39,390 bases of DNA from a virus: IMG/VR virus record IMGVR_UViG_3300022871_000506, positions 1 to 39,390 of that record; one strand, written 5' to 3'. Below are positions 4,224-38,083 of this stretch, piece after piece. Both the position numbers and the translations under genes were made by a program. How positions within the stretch are numbered: position 1 is the stretch's first letter; each line of letters begins with the position of its first letter. Below the pieces are notes generated by a model. The model searched no databases, was not told the DNA's origin, and saw only the letters and a program-made list of their open reading frames with translations.

Positions 4224-4273
4224 CTTTTCTATTATTTATAAAAGTTTGTTCTTTTTTATAAATAATAGAAAAG
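4224..4273. repeat. 20-bp perfect inverted repeat holding two divergent late promoters
   Basis: Arms 4224-4243 and 4254-4273 are exact reverse complements, separated by 10 bases. Each arm contains a TATAAATA late promoter box, one firing left into the fibre-like genes and one firing right into tnpB copy 1. Confidence 0.85.
4233..4240 (-). promoter_or_regulatory. T4-type late promoter for fibre-like genes
   Basis: Reads TATAAATA on the minus strand, followed by the AATAGAAAAG stretch seen at other late promoters here. It lies 41 bases before the start of the fibre-like gene at 4192. Recognised by a gp55-type sigma factor in T4. Confidence 0.8.
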
Positions 4274-4350
4274 AGATGCTCTTCTAGTCCACATAAACTA
4301 GAAGACTCTGGTGAGAAAGTTTACCAGATGACATCTCTGTAATATTTATA
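4257..4350 (+). promoter_or_regulatory. Leader cassette 1: late promoter, three-way-junction RNA, inverse promoter box
   Basis: TATAAATA at 4257-4264. Stem P1 4272-4278 pairs with 4332-4338 (AGAGATG/CATCTCT). P2 4280-4288 pairs with 4297-4305 (9 bp). P3 4308-4312 pairs with 4323-4327 (CTGGT/ACCAG). The inverse box TATTTATA lies at 4343-4350. A late transcript should start within a few bases of P1, so its 5' end would be the folded junction. The two boxes can also pair with each other (9 bp, 4256-4264 with 4343-4351), closing a longer stem in any read-through RNA. tnpB starts at 4371. Four more copies exist in the window. Confidence 0.8.
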
Positions 4351-4370
4351 ATATAAGAGAAAGTAAACAA

Positions 4371-5579
4371 ATGTCAAGTAAAACTACAATTAAATCAACT
4401 AAGACTTCAATAAAATTTTCTAACACTAATAAGAAAAACACCATTAAAGAAATTATCTCTGAATATAAAAGAGTAATGAAAGAGTTTATTGACATTTTGT
4501 GGATCATTGATGATACACCAGATTTTATTAGTAAAAAAATATACTCACAAGTTGATTCGTGGTTCACTGCGGCTTTACTTCAAAATGCAGCTAGACAAGC
4601 ATCTGGTATAGTTAGACAGTGTAAGGGTAAACAAGTAAAAAGAAAATTTGTAATTAATAAACTTATTTCTGAAAATAAACTAAAGAGAGCTAGAAAACTT
4701 CAAAAAATATATGATGGTATTTCTATCTCTAAACCGAAACTAAATAATGTTGGATTAACATTAGGTGGTAGATTTGCCATAATGGATTTTGATAACCAAA
4801 CTTCATTTGATGGTTGGATTACTTTAAAATGTATTAGTAAAGATATACGATTGAAGATTCCATTCAAGAAAACTAAACACTTCAACAAACTATTATCTCT
4901 AGGAAAACTAAAGAGCGGAATTAGATTATCTAATAAAAATATAACTTTCATGTTTGATGTGCCCGAAATAAAAAAGAAATCAACGGGATCAACTTTAGGA
5001 ATAGATATTGGATTAAAAAATGTAATTAGTTGTTCCAATAGTCATATATCTAAAATAAACTCACATGGACATGACTTAAATTCAATCTGTTCTATTCTAG
5101 CTAGAAAGAAAGGAGAGAGTAAAGGATTCAAGAGAGCTCAAGCACACAGAACCAACTATATTAACTGGTCTATAAATCAGTTGAACTTAGATAAAGTAAA
5201 GCAAGTAAATATAGAAGAAATTAAATATTTAAGATATAAAAACAAAACATCGAAAAAATTAAGTCATTGGACTTACACAGACATCTTTGGCAAGATTGAA
5301 TCTTACTGTGAGGAACATGGTGTCCATGTTCTGAAAGTAAATCCAACTTATACCAGTCAACGTTGTAGTAACTGTGGATTTACTCGTAAAAGTAATCGTA
5401 AGGGAAAACTATTTAAATGCTCTGAATGTGGTTATACCACGGATGCAGATTTAAATGCTTCCATTAATATTTCTTTGAGGCTGAAACCTATATGGAAGAA
5501 GCAACGACTGAAACAAATGAATAGAGTAGGTTTCTATTGGTTAGTTGAGGGACAGGATTGTATAGTACCTGTTGTATAA
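4371..5579 (+). CDS. tnpB: TnpB-family RNA-guided nuclease (OrfB, IS605/IS607 type), copy 1
   Basis: 402 residues, the usual TnpB length. The RuvC-like catalytic set is complete: Asp in LGIDIGLKN (about residue 213), Glu in NIEEIKYL (about 281) and Asp in DADLNASIN (about 357-359). The inserted zinc ribbon is intact, CSNC (about 331) and CSEC (about 349). TnpB proteins cut DNA under guidance of an RNA made from the element's 3' end. Without a transposase, the expected outcome is homing: cutting an empty allele and being copied in by phage recombination. It is about 70-75% identical to copy 3 (36831-38042) by eye. The leader carries a late promoter. The ribosome binding site (AGAG) is weak. 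Confidence 0.9.
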   Translation: MSSKTTIKSTKTSIKFSNTNKKNTIKEIISEYKRVMKEFIDILWIIDDTPDFISKKIYSQVDSWFTAALLQNAARQASGIVRQCKGKQVKRKFVINKLISENKLKRARKLQKIYDGISISKPKLNNVGLTLGGRFAIMDFDNQTSFDGWITLKCISKDIRLKIPFKKTKHFNKLLSLGKLKSGIRLSNKNITFMFDVPEIKKKSTGSTLGIDIGLKNVISCSNSHISKINSHGHDLNSICSILARKKGESKGFKRAQAHRTNYINWSINQLNLDKVKQVNIEEIKYLRYKNKTSKKLSHWTYTDIFGKIESYCEEHGVHVLKVNPTYTSQRCSNCGFTRKSNRKGKLFKCSECGYTTDADLNASINISLRLKPIWKKQRLKQMNRVGFYWLVEGQDCIVPVV

Positions 5580-5580
5580 A
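5512..5580 (+). ncRNA. Possible omega-RNA scaffold overlapping the tnpB 3' end
   Basis: Two hairpins lie in the last codons: 5520-5524 with 5534-5538, part of a longer imperfect stem, and 5552-5556 with 5568-5572 (ACAGG/CCTGT). The same two hairpins occur at the same place in copy 3, where the first is a perfect 13-bp stem. TnpB guide RNAs are known to overlap the 3' end of the gene and end in a guide taken from the flank, so the guide here would start soon after 5580. The RNA itself is inferred. Confidence 0.45.
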
Positions 5581-5621
5581 AAATATATTTTATTTAAATA
5601 TATAACTATGGTCGCGCCAAT

Positions 5622-12837: not shown

Positions 12838-12878
12838 GGAGCCTAGTTGAAATTAAATTTCAACTAGGCTCCTTTTTT
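12838..12878 (+). terminator. Strong rho-independent terminator
   Basis: A perfect 16-bp stem (12838-12853 with 12857-12872), a 3-base loop and six T. It ends the plus-strand late unit; its T-tract overlaps the stop codon of the convergent endonuclease gene. Confidence 0.95.
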
Positions 12879-13836
12879 ATCTAATAGATGAATCTCTAAA
12901 ATCCTTAACTGTCAATCTAATTAATCTAATTCCATTATTTTTACAATAGTCGTTTTTTCTTTTATCGTGTATCAATAATCGTTCATAGTTCTTTTTTGGC
13001 ATAAACCACTCAACCCACTTAAAATGTTGTATACCATCACACTCAATAGCCACATTGTGATCCGGCAAATAAAAATCAAACATCAACAAACCACCACCAC
13101 AACCAACTAAACCATCAAAGGTCTTTTGTGGTTCAAAGTTCATACCCCGTTTAATGAGGTGGTTAGTCATAACTCGTTCCATGTGAGAATATTTACAGAC
13201 AGAACAACCTTTACCATTTATGTGATTGTTCATGTTTTGTTTGAAAAATCCATGTTCAGGACACCCTATCCATACTTTAGATTGTTGGTTTTTGAAATCT
13301 TCATGAACTCGTGAATAATCATATTTGTTGTTATGTGTTTCTTTGGCTTTGTTTATTGATGACTCTATACGCATGTTTAGTGGCTGTTTTACATTGGCGC
13401 AATGTTTACAATCCTTACCATTTATATGGTTATAAAATAATTGTTTAACCCAACCATGCACTGGACATCCTATCAACACTTCGGAGTGTTGATTTTTAAA
13501 GTTCTCGTGTACTCGTGAATAATCATATTTGTTATTGTGTTTTATTTTTGCTCTATTGATAGCTGAATTTAATCGATGTTCTAATGGTTGATTTGTATTA
13601 GTACACTTTGGACAATTGCCACCACCAATATTAGTGATTATTAATTGCTTATACCATCCATGTATTTTACACCCTATCCACACTTTAGATTGTTGGGTTT
13701 TAAAATCTTCGTGAACTCTGGAATAATCATACTTATCACCATGAACTTCTTTAGCTCTATTGATGGCATATTGTAATCTAATTTCAAGTGTGGCATACTG
13801 TGGTCGAGATTCTAGTGTAGTTTGTTTCTTTTTCAT
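12877..13836 (-). CDS. Homing endonuclease-like: zinc-finger repeats plus Vsr-like nuclease
   Basis: 319 residues. Three copies of a ~60-residue repeat (about 20-78, 85-143 and 150-205), each with KYDYSRVHE, an IGC..HG site and a C..C pair, are probably zinc-binding DNA-recognition modules (DUF723-like). The C-terminal ~100 residues form a Vsr/PD-(D/E)XK-type nuclease: FDFYLPDHNVAIECDG with the acidic pair, then a Q-H-F and an IRLIRLT strand. Such free-standing nucleases spread by cutting empty alleles. It lies between the sugar cluster and gp13, opposite to both. Its leader is cassette 4, nearly identical to that of tnpB copy 3. GGAAACC serves as ribosome binding site. Confidence 0.85.
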   Translation of the reverse strand: MKKKQTTLESRPQYATLEIRLQYAINRAKEVHGDKYDYSRVHEDFKTQQSKVWIGCKIHGWYKQLIITNIGGGNCPKCTNTNQPLEHRLNSAINRAKIKHNNKYDYSRVHENFKNQHSEVLIGCPVHGWVKQLFYNHINGKDCKHCANVKQPLNMRIESSINKAKETHNNKYDYSRVHEDFKNQQSKVWIGCPEHGFFKQNMNNHINGKGCSVCKYSHMERVMTNHLIKRGMNFEPQKTFDGLVGCGGGLLMFDFYLPDHNVAIECDGIQHFKWVEWFMPKKNYERLLIHDKRKNDYCKNNGIRLIRLTVKDFRDSSIR

Positions 13837-13846
13837 TGGTTTCCAT

Positions 13847-13944
13847 TATAAATAGTTATATGAGATGTTATTCTGGTAGAGTTTCCAACCAGAGTTCTTT
13901 AGTTATCCACAACTAAAGAACCATCTCTGTTTATATTATTTATA
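13847..13944 (-). promoter_or_regulatory. Leader cassette 4: late promoter, three-way-junction RNA, inverse promoter box
   Basis: On the minus strand: TATAAATA (13944-13937); P1 GAGATG (13927-13922) with CATCTC (13867-13862); P2 an 11-bp perfect stem (13921-13911 with 13904-13894); P3 CTGGT (13892-13888) with ACCAG (13877-13873); inverse box at 13854-13847. The endonuclease ATG follows at 13836. The stretch from the inverse box to the ATG differs from cassette 3 by about one base, although the downstream proteins are unrelated. Confidence 0.8.
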
Positions 13945-21122: not shown

Positions 21123-21216
21123 TATAAATAATAGAAAAAGAGGCTCTGTTAGTTGTATCAAACTAACAGACTCTGGTGAGAAACTTTACCAGATTAACCT
21201 CTCTGTAATATTTATA
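21123..21216 (+). promoter_or_regulatory. Leader cassette 2: late promoter, three-way-junction RNA, inverse promoter box
   Basis: TATAAATA 21123-21130; P1 21139-21143 with 21198-21202 (AGAGG/CCTCT); P2 21145-21154 with 21161-21170 (10 bp); P3 21173-21177 with 21188-21192 (CTGGT/ACCAG); inverse box 21209-21216. ATG at 21237. P1 and P2 differ in sequence from cassette 1 but keep pairing. Confidence 0.8.
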
Positions 21217-21236
21217 ATATAAGAGAAACTAAAGTA

Positions 21237-22844
21237 ATGTCAAGTAAATTAGTTAAAAAATCATATAGTTTTTATTCAAAAGAACTAAACTCCACCAAAA
21301 GAGAATTGCTCTACAAGAAAGCCATTGAACTAAGAGACTTTAGAAATCAAATCTCGCAAGAAGTTTGTTTAAACTTACCTAAGTTTGAAAAGATGTCTAA
21401 ATTTGATTGGATTAACCACTTTAGAACCAGACTGCCCAACTGTAGTAGTGCTGATATTAGTTGTACAATATCTGATGTCTTTATCAATTATCAAAATAAA
21501 ATAAATTCTTTCAGACAAAAAATATCATTTAAACTACAAAAATCTCTAGGGGTTAGATACTATAAGAAGAACCACAAACAACATAAGAAAGGTGATTTCC
21601 ATTCCCACGACATGACTTTTAGATATACTAGATTAACTAAAGTAATAACATATCTAGCTAGATATTACAATGATGGAATGCTAAATTGGTTAAAGAAAAA
21701 TAAAGATGTAGATGAAAAGAAGAAACAACTTAGAACTGATGCTTATAATCTATTGGTTAAATATGACCAGAGAATAATTAAACTAATTAAATCAAGAAGA
21801 CAAAGAGTTCTAAATAAATTAACTGAACATCCAATAGAGTTTAAATCTCTTTCCTTTAGGTCATATAATGAAATAACACAACCAATATTAGCGCAGAATA
21901 AAAATATTCATTCTAAATATAATTCATACATCACATTAGGAGCACAGAAAACTAAAGATGGCAAAATACATATTCCAGTTAAATTTGATGATAAACATCA
22001 TGGAACTATAGATGACTATAAAACCAAAGCAAAGAAAAATGACATTATTACAACTCCATATATAGTTTCTTTCCTCACTAATGGTTCTATTAGAATAACT
22101 TTAACCAAAGATATGCCGGATGAATCTATAACCAATAAACATAATTATATGGGAGTTGATGTCAATATTAAACATAATCTATTCTCCACATGTAGTGGAA
22201 CTGAAATAGATTATGACAGGAAGATATTTGATGGATATGTTAAATTCCTCAAGAGATTAGATAAAAAGAAACTCAACAAGAAGAAATATAATCAAGGTAG
22301 AGACCTCTCAAGAAATGACCAAACCAAATTTGATAAGTGGAAAATTAGAATAAAAGACACGTTAAAGAGAAAATCTAACGAATTAGTCAAAGAAGCGATT
22401 AAACAAAACAAAGATCATATTGTAATGGAAGATTTAAAATTAATGGGTAAGATGTACTCTAGGTCTAAAGAGTTCGATGGGTTTAAATATTCAAGACTAA
22501 TAAGATTACTCAACCTTAGTGATCTAAAAAATATAGTTACATCCATTGCTAATAAACATGGTTTACAAGTAAGTTTTGTTCAACCACACTACACAAGTCA
22601 AACCTGTAACAAGTGTGGTTGTATATCAAGAAGTAATAGAGTTACACAGGAGACGTTCTCCTGTGTCGATTGTGGGTCTTCATCTAATGCAGACACTCAT
22701 TCAGCTATTAACATAAGAGATAGGTTAGAAAGCTCTGAATTGAGATCTAGTTTATTAAATATGAAAAATGGTTTATATAGTCCTAAGAAAATGAAAAAGG
22801 AAACTATTAAATTTATTTTATATAATCACTACAGTTCTTTATAG
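21237..22844 (+). CDS. tnpB: Large TnpB-like / Cas12-like RuvC nuclease
   Basis: 535 residues, about 130 longer than ordinary TnpB, with most of the extra length in the N-terminal part. The RuvC residues are present: Asp in GVDVNIKHN (about 307), Glu in VMEDLKLMG (about 397) and Asp in NADTHSAINI (about 485). Zinc ribbon CNKC (about 456) and CVDC (about 476) intact. PHYTSQTCNKCG is the classic TnpB signature. It shares only this core with copies 1 and 3, yet carries the same leader cassette. A small hairpin (22833-22838 with 22843-22848) spans the stop codon. Probably an RNA-guided nuclease acting in homing. Confidence 0.88.
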   Translation: MSSKLVKKSYSFYSKELNSTKRELLYKKAIELRDFRNQISQEVCLNLPKFEKMSKFDWINHFRTRLPNCSSADISCTISDVFINYQNKINSFRQKISFKLQKSLGVRYYKKNHKQHKKGDFHSHDMTFRYTRLTKVITYLARYYNDGMLNWLKKNKDVDEKKKQLRTDAYNLLVKYDQRIIKLIKSRRQRVLNKLTEHPIEFKSLSFRSYNEITQPILAQNKNIHSKYNSYITLGAQKTKDGKIHIPVKFDDKHHGTIDDYKTKAKKNDIITTPYIVSFLTNGSIRITLTKDMPDESITNKHNYMGVDVNIKHNLFSTCSGTEIDYDRKIFDGYVKFLKRLDKKKLNKKKYNQGRDLSRNDQTKFDKWKIRIKDTLKRKSNELVKEAIKQNKDHIVMEDLKLMGKMYSRSKEFDGFKYSRLIRLLNLSDLKNIVTSIANKHGLQVSFVQPHYTSQTCNKCGCISRSNRVTQETFSCVDCGSSSNADTHSAINIRDRLESSELRSSLLNMKNGLYSPKKMKKETIKFILYNHYSSL

Positions 22845-31162: not shown

Positions 31163-32473
31163 CTAATTATTTGAAACTAATTTATCTAAAACTTTACCAA
31201 ACTCCATAAGCGATAAATTATCTGGTGTTTTATATTTAGTTTCTGAAACTTTTATTAATTTTTTATTATTTTTTCTACACCATTCGTCTTTAATTGAATC
31301 ACGATGTTTTATTAATTCTAAATCAGTATACATAAATTGAACAAAATGTTGTGCTCCATTATATTCTACCAATATATCAAAATCTATTAGATAAAAATCA
31401 AAGCGAAGAACCATTATATTTTTACATGTATCAAACGTTTTTTGAAATTCATATTTTATATTTCTATCGGTTAACATCTTATCAACCTTTTTCTCATAAT
31501 ATGAACTTTTACATTTTGCACATCCTGTTTTATTAGTCATTAATGAGTTATATGTTATATTCCATTCATTTTTGCAAATCTTACAAATAACGGTTGATTT
31601 TTTTAATGCACTTTTATAAATAAATTTACTAAAATCAATATCTTCAAAATTCTTTTCTAATATAGCAATTGCTTCTTTCTGTGTTTTCTTTACGTTTCCA
31701 TAACAATTTATACATCTTTTACCGGCAACTAAACCACTATATGTTATTTTCCACTCTCTACCACATTTTTTGCATATAGCTATAGACCTTGAGCCTGTTG
31801 TTGTAAATTTAAATTTAGATAAATCAATATATTTTGAACATTTTTTATTTAATCGTTTTAGTGCTTCTTCTGGGTTTAATTTACAATTTTTAACACAATA
31901 TGGACATCCAGTTCCTTGTGATAATTTATCGGTACTGACCATCCATTCTTTTTTACATTTTTTACAAATAGCTGTTGATTTTTTATGGGTTCCCGTATAA
32001 ACAAATTTACTAAAATCTATGTTTGTTCTTTTCTTTATTATTTTTTCCATAGGACTTCTTTCTTGAATAGCCTTTATCTTTTTACAATTCGGACAACTGT
32101 TTATTGTTGACAATCTCACATAAACAGAACTCCATTTATTTTTGCATATAGTACATTCACATGAAATTATTGTTTTTTGTCCAACGTATTTGAATTTATC
32201 AAATTTAATTGTTGGAAATTTTTTCTCAAATCTTTCTCTAACTTCTTTTGTGGTTGGAATGTTGTTCTTACTGCATTTTGGACAACCAACACCATTGACC
32301 AAATGGGAAAATCTACCCAACCACTCAATTGGTGGGTTGTGTTTATGGCAAATGCAAATTGATTTATTTTTTGATGTGGTGTAAATATATTTACTAAAGT
32401 CTATATCACACCCATGGGTGTTTTGTAATCTTTTAATTGCTTCTTCTTGTGTTAATTTTATATTGTTTATCAT
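31163..32473 (-). CDS. Homing endonuclease-like: five zinc-finger repeats plus Vsr-like nuclease
   Basis: 436 residues. Five repeats of ~65 residues (starting near 8, 75, 140, 205 and 270), each with a FSK..Y..T pattern, an IC..C or IC..H pair, a Trp, and a closing C..C, suggesting zinc-bound DNA-recognition modules. The C-terminal ~110 residues form a nuclease domain with LRFDFYLIDFDILVEYNG and QHF, then KKLIKVSE. Unlike the other two such genes it has no leader cassette: it starts 12 bases after the Dda stop and is read with the early operon. AGGAAACA is its ribosome binding site. Confidence 0.83.
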   Translation of the reverse strand: MINNIKLTQEEAIKRLQNTHGCDIDFSKYIYTTSKNKSICICHKHNPPIEWLGRFSHLVNGVGCPKCSKNNIPTTKEVRERFEKKFPTIKFDKFKYVGQKTIISCECTICKNKWSSVYVRLSTINSCPNCKKIKAIQERSPMEKIIKKRTNIDFSKFVYTGTHKKSTAICKKCKKEWMVSTDKLSQGTGCPYCVKNCKLNPEEALKRLNKKCSKYIDLSKFKFTTTGSRSIAICKKCGREWKITYSGLVAGKRCINCYGNVKKTQKEAIAILEKNFEDIDFSKFIYKSALKKSTVICKICKNEWNITYNSLMTNKTGCAKCKSSYYEKKVDKMLTDRNIKYEFQKTFDTCKNIMVLRFDFYLIDFDILVEYNGAQHFVQFMYTDLELIKHRDSIKDEWCRKNNKKLIKVSETKYKTPDNLSLMEFGKVLDKLVSNN

Positions 32474-34214: not shown

Positions 34215-34304
34215 TATAAATAAAGATGAGGTAAGGTCAAATGTTCGATGCACTTGACCACCACCAAGAATAAGAAAGGTGGTTGTCCCTCAATAATATT
34301 TATA
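34215..34304 (+). promoter_or_regulatory. Leader cassette 5: late promoter, three-way-junction RNA, inverse promoter box
   Basis: TATAAATA 34215-34222; P1 34227-34231 with 34288-34292 (TGAGG/CCTCA); P2 34235-34240 with 34254-34259 (GGTCAA/TTGACC); P3 34260-34265 with 34278-34283 (ACCACC/GGTGGT); inverse box 34297-34304. All three stems differ in sequence from cassettes 1-4 but keep the layout. The box pairing extends to 12 bp here (34211-34222 with 34297-34308). AAGGAT then ATG 34321. Confidence 0.75.
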
Positions 34305-34320
34305 GAATAAGGATAGTATT

Positions 34321-35445
34321 ATGTGTAATGTACCACGTTCCACCCGACTTGTCAAATTTATTTCAAAAGCAACCAAACTCCACAAAGGTAAATACGATTA
34401 CTCTCGAGTTCACGAAACATTTGAACGCAGTCGATCTATTGTTTTGATTGGTTGCCCAATACATGGTTGGTTTAAAACTACCCCCGGTCAACATTTAGTT
34501 AGCAAAGGGTGTAAAGAATGTATGCCGAGACGATGTTCAGTTGAACAAAGATGTAAAATTTTTATTGAAAAAGCAACTAAACTTCATAAGGGTAGATATG
34601 ACTACTCTCGTGTACATGAAACATTTAAAGACAGTTCTTCTAAAATTAAAATTGGATGTAACATACATGGATTTTTCACCACAACAACTGACATCCATTT
34701 ACAAGGCAGTGGATGTAAAGATTGTACCGTTAATAGAGGTTCACTTAAAACTCGATGTAATAATTTCATAACCAAAGCCAACAAAGTTCATAATAATAAG
34801 TATGGTTATATATTCGCTCATGTTCATTACTTTGATAAAAATAAAAAGATACCAATAATGTGTTGGAAACACGGCACGTTTGAAATACCACCAGCATCAC
34901 ACCTAAGGGGTGGAGGTTGCCCTAATTGCACTCACAACTGGGCTTCTGTTGAAATAAGAGCACAGAACTTTATTGATGAAGCCACCAGAGTCCATAGAGG
35001 TGCATATGAATATAAGCTATCAGATTACAAAAGTAACAGAGATATGATGAAAATATATTGTAAAGCATGTAAAAATGTATTTGAACAGGCAGCATACTCA
35101 CATCTCCGTGGATGTGGGTGTTCCATATGTAGTATGTCTAGCATGGAGTTAATTATATTTAATAGACTAAAAGAGAATAATATTAAACATGAATCAGAAA
35201 AATCATTCCCCGATTTAAGGGGTAAGAGTGGACGGAAGTTGAGATTTGATTTCTATTTACCAGACCACAACACCTGTATTGAGTGTGATGGGGAACAACA
35301 TTTTAAATGGGTGCCGGGTTTTATGACTAGACAGTCTTTTGATAAGTTACAGGAAAATGATAAAATTAAAGATAAATATTGTCATGACAATGGAATTAGA
35401 ATGATTAGATTAACTAAAGAGGACTTTAAGCCATCACGAAAATAG
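34321..35445 (+). CDS. Homing endonuclease-like: four zinc-finger repeats plus Vsr-like nuclease
   Basis: 374 residues. Four repeats of ~65 residues; the first two are canonical (KYDYSRVHE or RYDYSRVHE, then IGC..HG and C..C), while the third and fourth are more diverged (KYGYIFAHVHY; AYEYKLSDYK). The nuclease domain is in the last ~105 residues: LRFDFYLPDHNTCIECDG, QHFKWV, NGIRMIRLT. Closely related to the 12877-13836 protein, but in a different place. It lies between an early gene and gp4, and its 3' end overlaps that of gp4 by 12 bases. Confidence 0.85.
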   Translation: MCNVPRSTRLVKFISKATKLHKGKYDYSRVHETFERSRSIVLIGCPIHGWFKTTPGQHLVSKGCKECMPRRCSVEQRCKIFIEKATKLHKGRYDYSRVHETFKDSSSKIKIGCNIHGFFTTTTDIHLQGSGCKDCTVNRGSLKTRCNNFITKANKVHNNKYGYIFAHVHYFDKNKKIPIMCWKHGTFEIPPASHLRGGGCPNCTHNWASVEIRAQNFIDEATRVHRGAYEYKLSDYKSNRDMMKIYCKACKNVFEQAAYSHLRGCGCSICSMSSMELIIFNRLKENNIKHESEKSFPDLRGKSGRKLRFDFYLPDHNTCIECDGEQHFKWVPGFMTRQSFDKLQENDKIKDKYCHDNGIRMIRLTKEDFKPSRK

Positions 35446-36722: not shown

Positions 36723-36820
36723 TATAAATAGAAGTAAGAGATGCTTTCTTTAGCTCTATCAAACTAAAGAAACTCTGGTTGGAAGTAGTACCAGATTAAC
36801 ATCTCATAAAACTATTTATA
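36723..36820 (+). promoter_or_regulatory. Leader cassette 3: late promoter, three-way-junction RNA, inverse promoter box
   Basis: TATAAATA 36723-36730; P1 36738-36743 with 36800-36805 (GAGATG/CATCTC); P2 36745-36753 with 36764-36772 (9 bp); P3 36775-36779 with 36790-36794 (CTGGT/ACCAG); inverse box 36813-36820, then GGAAGC as ribosome binding site and ATG 36831. Confidence 0.8.
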
Positions 36821-36830
36821 ATGGAAGCAA

Positions 36831-38042
36831 ATGAAAAAGAAGAAATCTACAATTAAATCCACAAAGACTTCAATGAAGTTTTCAAATACTAATAAGAAAG
36901 ATGCCATCAAGAACATAATCTTTGAATACAAAAGAGTAATGGAAGAGTTTATTACTCTAATGTGGCTCATTGATGATTTAAAGCCTCTGGCAGACAAAGA
37001 ACTTACTTCACAGGTTTCAACATGGCTAAGTGCCAGAATGGTTCAGTGTGCCTCTAAACAAGCTTCTGGTATAGTTAGAGGAACTAGAAGAAAACAAGAG
37101 AAGAGATTATTTGTGATTGGAGAACTAATCAAAGAGAATAAACTAAAGAGAGCTAGAAAACTCCAGAAAATATATGATGAAGTTTCAATCTCTAAACCAA
37201 ACTTAAATAATGTTGAACCTGAATTGGATTCAAGGTTTGTTAAAATAGACTTAGATAATTCTACTTCCTTTGATGGGTGGATTGATTTGTGGTGTATTGG
37301 AAATAAATTAAAACTACAGATTCCATTCAAGAAAACTAAACACTTCAACAAACTACTAGCTCTAGGTGAACTAAAGAAAGGAATTAGATTGAGTTCAAAG
37401 AACATAACTTTTATGTTTGATATTCCAGAGGTAACTAAAAAAGATAGTGGAATTACTCTTGGAATAGATATAGGACTAAAGAATGTAATCTCCTGTTCTA
37501 ATAGTCATATATCTAAACCAAACCCACATGGACATGACTTAGATTCAATCTGCTCTATCTTAGCTAGAAAGAAAGGAGAGAGTAAAGGATTCAAGAGAGC
37601 TCAAGCACACAGAACCAACTATATTAACTGGGCAATTAACCAACTAAACTTGAGTGGTACTAAACAAATAAACATTGAAGCAATTAAAAATTTAAGATAT
37701 AAAAATAAGAGCTCAAGAAAATTAGCTCGCTGGACTTACACAGACATCTTTGGCAAGATTGAGAGTTACTGTGAGGAACATGGTGTCCATGTTCTAAAAG
37801 TAAACCCAACCTATACCTCACAAAGATGTTCAAACTGTGGATGGACTCGTAAAAGTAATAGAAAAGGAAAACTGTTTAAATGTGGTCAATGCTCATTAGA
37901 GTTAGATGCAGATTTAAACGCTTCCATTAATATTTCTTTAAAGCTGAAACCTATATGGAATAAGCAACGACTGAAACAAGCCAATAGAGTAGGTTTCTAT
38001 TGGCTTGTTGATGGACAGGATTCTATAGTACCTGTTGTATAA
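36831..38042 (+). CDS. tnpB: TnpB-family RNA-guided nuclease, copy 3
   Basis: 403 residues, closely related to copy 1 along its whole length. Catalytic Asp in LGIDIGLKN (about 214), Glu in NIEAIKNL (about 282) and Asp in LDADLNASIN (about 360) are intact; zinc ribbon CSNC and CGQC intact. The C-terminus GFYWLVDGQDSIVPVV is nearly identical to copy 1 even at the DNA level, probably because this DNA also encodes the guide RNA scaffold. Oriented opposite to all neighbours. Confidence 0.9.
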   Translation: MKKKKSTIKSTKTSMKFSNTNKKDAIKNIIFEYKRVMEEFITLMWLIDDLKPLADKELTSQVSTWLSARMVQCASKQASGIVRGTRRKQEKRLFVIGELIKENKLKRARKLQKIYDEVSISKPNLNNVEPELDSRFVKIDLDNSTSFDGWIDLWCIGNKLKLQIPFKKTKHFNKLLALGELKKGIRLSSKNITFMFDIPEVTKKDSGITLGIDIGLKNVISCSNSHISKPNPHGHDLDSICSILARKKGESKGFKRAQAHRTNYINWAINQLNLSGTKQINIEAIKNLRYKNKSSRKLARWTYTDIFGKIESYCEEHGVHVLKVNPTYTSQRCSNCGWTRKSNRKGKLFKCGQCSLELDADLNASINISLKLKPIWNKQRLKQANRVGFYWLVDGQDSIVPVV

Positions 38043-38045
38043 AGA
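37975..38045 (+). ncRNA. Possible omega-RNA scaffold overlapping the tnpB 3' end
   Basis: A perfect 13-bp stem, 37975-37987 with 37997-38009 (9-base loop), and a second hairpin 38015-38019 with 38031-38035, both inside the last codons. The same positions form hairpins in copy 1. This matches where TnpB guide RNAs are found in other systems; the guide would begin near 38045. Confidence 0.5.
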
Positions 38046-38083
38046 ACTAATTTGAACTTGAAGAAGTAGATTTTTCAATATTA

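Follow-up and report, generated by a model that had tools for sequence, protein, structure and literature searches.

HEARO and other Rfam families are structured RNAs linked to nuclease genes, and the reRNA or omegaRNA of TnpB usually lies 3' of its gene. T4-type leader hairpins have been described for I-TevI, I-TevII, I-TevIII, segB and Aeh1 mobE, and for seg43(25) of Aeromonas phage 25; these RNA structures directly precede homing endonuclease genes of phages, and most have a late promoter positioned at them (PMC2988022). In IS10, the antisense RNA-OUT blocks ribosome binding, and the block is stronger at high copy number (PMC5006887). RNA-OUT and art200 of IS200 are both short opposite-strand RNAs complementary to the translation start region of a mobile-element gene (PMC5006887, PMC12594629).

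The window analysed here is the whole stretch of 39,390 nucleotides of IMG/VR virus record IMGVR_UViG_3300022871_000506, in which five nuclease genes carry a structured leader. TnpB-like proteins are encoded by three of these genes (PF07282, E 6e-15 to 6e-21) and DUF723/VSR-like homing endonucleases by the other two (phrog_559, E 4e-50 and 1e-70). The association with TnpB is shared with reRNA/omegaRNA, but the element lies on the 5' side and is found ahead of GIY-YIG, HNH and VSR-like genes as well. With the HEARO-type families it shares the pairing of a structured RNA and a nuclease gene, although none of them matches it at the gathering score. As in the I-TevI type, a late promoter box lies directly before the nuclease gene (TATAAATA in all five leaders), whereas the element is a three-way junction (TWJ) instead of a hairpin, has two facing boxes, and has a loop that copies the ribosome-binding site (SD). 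Like RNA-OUT, its predicted opposite-strand RNA would be complementary to the translation start region of the nuclease gene, over at least 7 nt in 25/33 and 23/29 elements of the two sets described below. RNA-OUT overlaps its target and is perfectly complementary to it over the first 35 nt, whereas here the complementarity is that of a 6-11 nt loop copy and the target is not overlapped, the convergent box sitting between the TWJ and the SD, upstream of the SD.

The preliminary description knew of no family of this form, and none was found in Rfam or in the open-access papers searched. Rfam 15 at the gathering threshold gave 0 matches in the window, and only a tmRNA in 13 element-bearing loci. 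In one of the loci (L226, 6945-7311), a tmRNA gene adjoins a homing endonuclease bearing the element. Among isolated phages, megablast with the first 12 kb of the window found nothing, and blastn returned short weak matches only, both for leader A and for one leader of the cis arrangement defined below. A model search of three phage regions (from a Campylobacter phage, a Tenacibaculum phage and a T-even phage) gave nothing convincing.

Five leaders enclosed by facing promoter boxes

The five leaders lie where they had first been placed, with TATAAATA at 4257, 21123, 36723 and 34215 on the plus strand (leaders A, B, C and D) and at 13944 on the minus strand (leader E), each followed by a TWJ, the SD and the ATG. 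The predicted energy of the TWJ is -19 to -28 kcal/mol, and the sequence versions of P1, P2 and P3 in the five leaders checked are those originally described. The sixth nuclease gene (31163-32473, minus strand) was searched for a leader of this kind, and none was found.

Two features had escaped the preliminary description. The first is TATTTATA, the late-promoter box on the opposite strand, which stands at the end of 5/5 leaders; the leader ends given earlier coincide exactly with this second box. As all five leaders end in an opposite-strand box, the TWJ is enclosed by two facing boxes. The second is that the P3 loop is a copy of the gene's own SD region, over 8, 8, 6, 7 and 7 nt in A, B, C, D and E, the repeated SD region standing after the second box.

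Leader A, for a TnpB gene at 4371-5579, has its late promoter box TATAAATA at 4257-4264 (+), its TWJ (P1 GAGATG/CATCTC, P2 and P3) at 4273-4337 (+), the P3-loop copy GAGAAAGT of the SD region at 4313-4320 (+), the convergent late promoter box at 4343-4350 on the minus strand, which is TATTTATA when read on the plus strand, and the SD-region copy GAGAAAGT at 4357-4364 (+). Leader B, for the TnpB gene at 21237-22844, has its box at 21123-21130 (+), TWJ at 21140-21201 (+), loop copy GAGAAACT at 21178-21185 (+), convergent box at 21209-21216 (-) and SD-region copy GAGAAACT at 21223-21230 (+). In leader C, for the TnpB gene at 36831-38042, the box is at 36723-36730 (+), the TWJ at 36738-36805 (+), the convergent box at 36813-36820 (-), and TGGAAG is found in the loop at 36780-36785 (+) and in the SD region at 36822-36827 (+).

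Leader D serves a VSR-like/DUF723-type homing endonuclease gene at 34321-35445. Its box is at 34215-34222 (+), its TWJ at 34227-34292 (+) and its convergent box at 34297-34304 (-), and GAATAAG is shared by the loop (34268-34274, +) and the SD region (34305-34311, +). Leader E serves a homing endonuclease gene at 12877-13836 and runs on the minus strand, with the late promoter box at 13937-13944 (-), the TWJ at 13862-13927 (-), TGGAAAC in the loop at 13881-13887 (-) and in the SD region at 13839-13845 (-), and the convergent box, TATAAATA on the plus strand, at 13847-13854 (+).

The TnpB genes were also compared with one another and with their relatives. Two of them are 90% identical at their 3' ends (5442-5590 and 37905-38053) and 69-83% identical over the gene bodies, a pattern that a guide-RNA scaffold reaching into the gene end would be expected to give. 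Relatives of TnpB at 35-51% identity on other viral contigs had no such leader within 250 bases before the gene, and a 535-aa TnpB used as a protein-scan query found no relative.

A covarying RNA family before mobile nuclease genes

The leaders are of two types. Leaders A, B, C and E together with two copies on contig L006 form type I, with P3 CTGGT/ACCAG or nearly so, and leader D is type II, with the core P1-TWA-P2-A(A)-P3-(c)TGTCC-P1'. Beyond the window, type I with a gene behind was found only in the two L006 copies. These lie together at 780-2105; behind the first come a short open frame and a glycosyltransferase-like gene, with no recognisable nuclease, and the second is without the TATTTATA box. 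A type I-like TWJ with both boxes and no gene behind (L071, 5410-5512) is perhaps an orphan left after nuclease loss.

Pattern scans of IMG/VR, which required only one of the two boxes, yielded many copies. Under constraint, 74 of them fold as a TWJ, a few of which look like chance (L257, L276, L305, L312 and L325 among them). Many matches to the first patterns were chance as well: L005 and L010 were coding sequence, and L114 had a tRNA-like fold. A type II covariance model was built from 19 sequences and gave 88 matches at E up to 1 among the fetched IMG/VR loci. With this model, up to 14 copies were also found in a single record, the largest such records reaching 405 kb. Leader D, itself one of the 19 training sequences, scored 42.4 bits (E 2e-7) as a member of this large family.

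The covariation first proposed from five leaders held in the larger family of leader D. In the type II alignment, 89.8% of cells were paired against 57.7% in shuffles, the covariation score was 0.631 against 0.155, and double-sided pair changes occupied 393 cells against 122, although these counts lean towards structure because the alignment was fitted to it. The signal collapses once partners are slid by one column. The element is probably a new Rfam family.

Nearly all copies directly precede a mobile nuclease gene (GIY-YIG, HNH, VSR-like or TnpB), in support of the link to mobile nucleases drawn from the window. A group of 48 downstream proteins gave Pfam matches to NUMOD3 (10), DUF7487 (8), GIY-YIG variants, the I-TevI DNA-binding domain, HNH and TnpB (OrfB_IS605), and their PHROGs matches were homing or HNH endonucleases (phrog_314 in 16, phrog_559 in 14). 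In L050 (8862-11694), a large-terminase gene is apparently fragmented; the ends of the fragments resemble split inteins, and the space separating two fragments contains a TWJ flanked by both boxes.

The elements sit about 15-40 nt ahead of start codons and occur in two arrangements. Strand F is defined as the one reading P1-TWA-...-TGTCC-P1', and strand R as the other. Elements in the anti arrangement have their gene on F and usually carry both facing boxes; those in the cis arrangement have it on R and mostly lack the gene-side box (21/24 elements). Among 23 anti elements picked by the left box alone, the convergent right box was exact in 20. Its spacing to P1 is 8.7 +- 2.7, and that of the sole upstream promoter of cis elements is 8.6 +- 2.3. 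In a 405 kb phage record (G013; copies L368 and L391-L394), GAATATATAA replaces TATAAATA, and in L393 and L394 it flanks both sides.

Since TATAAATA and TATTTATA are complementary, the boxes could instead serve as the arms of a switch of the kind established in T4-type homing endonucleases, I-TevI and mobE among them (PMC2988022, PMC3014915). In the read-through RNA, TATAAATA and the arm upstream of it would pair with TATTTATA and the SD, and late transcripts starting inside the hairpin would free the SD. When upstream sequence is included, the minimum-energy folds of A, C and D do show a longer stem, and this reading was initially favoured. It was dropped on a comparison with shuffled upstream arms, in which the predicted SD accessibility of the long transcript was not significantly below the control in any of 7 leaders (p 0.22-1.0), so that the hiding of the SD seen in the I-TevI type was not reproduced. 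The end bases of the two boxes also vary independently in record G002 (for example, GATAAATA with TATTTATA, and TATAAATA with TATTTATC), which is uncompensated variation and argues against the boxes being conserved through mutual pairing. The cis arrangement mostly lacks one of the two arms, and the loop copy of the SD is left unexplained. Such a switch is therefore quite unlikely.

A loop matched to the ribosome-binding site of its own gene

In the five window leaders and the two L006 copies, the match between the loop and its own SD averages 7.1 nt, against 5.0 in permutations (p 0.0004). In a first set of 33 anti elements, the longest identity between the second-hairpin loop and the element's own SD region averages 7.39 nt, against 4.09 for the SDs of other elements (z 15.9), and reaches at least 7 nt in 25/33 where 1.1 are expected; neither the first hairpin nor the complement mode shows such a signal in this set. 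A validation set of 29 elements, found by the covariance model, which holds neither SD nor boxes, gave 7.66 against 4.31 nt (z 14.6) and at least 7 nt in 23/29 where 1.3 are expected. There the loop-matching stretch ends at a median of 3 nt before the start codon. About a quarter of anti elements have a match below 7 nt.

In the cis arrangement the loop of hairpin 2 is complementary to the SD region instead (6.38 against 4.51, z 8.3). In several cis elements the SD sits inside ACCU-N6-AGGU, whose N6 complements the 6-nt loop of hairpin 2; by its sequence this is a kissing-loop design. The longest match seen is that of L389, a cis copy whose hairpins complement the SD region over 12 nt. An identical loop with the gene on F and a complementary loop with the gene on R mean that R carries the anti-SD loop in both cases. 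The two ARRANGEMENTS (anti, cis) are thus read under one rule, a predicted anti-SD loop on strand R.

A search of the anti mRNAs for a second stretch complementary to the SD found none upstream (p 0.37) and none within the gene's first 117 nt (p 0.26), and an intramolecular switch through another anti-SD copy was set aside. With no such stretch in the mRNA, an identical loop calls for a partner outside it. In the window, the anti-SD loop of the predicted antisense RNA is 86-100% unpaired, and the cognate antisense-SD duplexes have energies of -8 to -11 kcal/mol, cognate pairing being best for A, B and D. C and E are poorly separated from each other, and the anti-SD segment of C scores best on D. 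The cognate pairing is short, at 6-11 nt.

The partner might also be a protein. Repressors that bind two like sites are known, and a CsrA- or RegA-like dimer, or the nuclease itself, could bind both the loop and the SD of the mRNA; alternatively the mRNA-strand TWJ could itself shield the 5' end of the message. In-helix mismatches of the anti arrangement do lean to the mRNA strand (11 G-U against 4 A-C), so the fold of the mRNA may matter too. But the sequence shared by loop and SD varies by element and extends past GGA, which one fixed protein specificity cannot explain, and own-SD matches are far above matches to other SDs. A CsrA-type two-site repression was considered and rejected: the shared sequences differ, and a fixed GGA in both loop and SD is not what was found, several copies (A, B and D in the window) being without GGA. 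In the cis arrangement, moreover, the loop is complementary to the SD and not identical. An active mRNA-strand TWJ of this sort seems unlikely.

The pairing of the stems is close to strictly Watson-Crick on both strands, with 1.6% G-U and 3.2% A-C pairs. It may be that both RNAs must fold, or that there is a constraint on the DNA. In the latter case the TWJ would form as a cruciform or a folded single strand, with a part in recombination, replication or supercoiling control, and its repeats would be kept through template switching or gene conversion. The symmetry of the arrangement in both directions would suit this as well. However, a DNA-level function does not require the loop to match the SD, let alone by identity in the anti and by complementarity in the cis arrangement, and the elements lie close to start codons, at about 15-40 nt. 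A DNA-level role is very improbable.

A candidate brake on mobile nucleases

The best explanation, to which we give a probability of roughly 0.58, is that the leader serves phage mobile nucleases as a portable cassette for control by RNA, working as a dose-dependent brake either in antisense or in cis. A sequence able to form a TWJ on either strand would lie between two facing late promoters. From the outer promoter would come the nuclease mRNA, and from the convergent promoter beside the SD an antisense TWJ RNA with a folded part of about 70 nt. As the sense loop copies the SD region of the nuclease, the P3' loop of this antisense RNA would be its complement. We infer that both boxes are active as promoters, that the antisense RNA exists, and that this loop pairs in the cell with the SD in trans and represses by blocking ribosome binding. 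By analogy with RNA-OUT of IS10, the block would strengthen with dose as phage genome copies accumulate, so that nuclease output may be held down while the genomes multiply. In the cis arrangement, the working strand would be the mRNA leader, whose second hairpin loop would pair with its own SD region. One reading fits both arrangements: the working RNA would be whichever strand has the anti-SD loop, acting either as a leader that pairs with its own SD or as an antisense transcript of the convergent promoter. With only one working RNA strand, more G-U pairs would be expected than are seen, which counts against the model.

This changes the picture of a single sense-strand leader. The selected structure stands, and so, judging by the predicted late transcript, does its position at the very 5' end; there are two sequence types and two facing boxes, though, and the anti-SD loop is on the strand that is not the mRNA. 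Of the functions proposed earlier, translation control is the best fit, given the gene-by-gene match of the loop to the ribosome-binding site; protection of the message and protein binding fit less well. There is about an even chance that the element represents a new and widespread class of regulatory RNAs in phages: a single TWJ module with facing promoters would serve unrelated nuclease families, in antisense or in cis, and a loop evolved gene by gene to match the SD would make it an exchangeable, sequence-addressed dose brake.

The element bears on how phages tolerate the homing endonucleases and TnpB genes that they carry; one record has 14 copies of it. It would offer one common answer for unrelated nuclease families. 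It is also a sequence tag for finding mobile nucleases, and the family is a natural set of loop-SD pairs for RNA design. Altogether, a loop matched to its own ribosome-binding site gene by gene points to a previously undescribed RNA brake on the mobile nucleases of phages.
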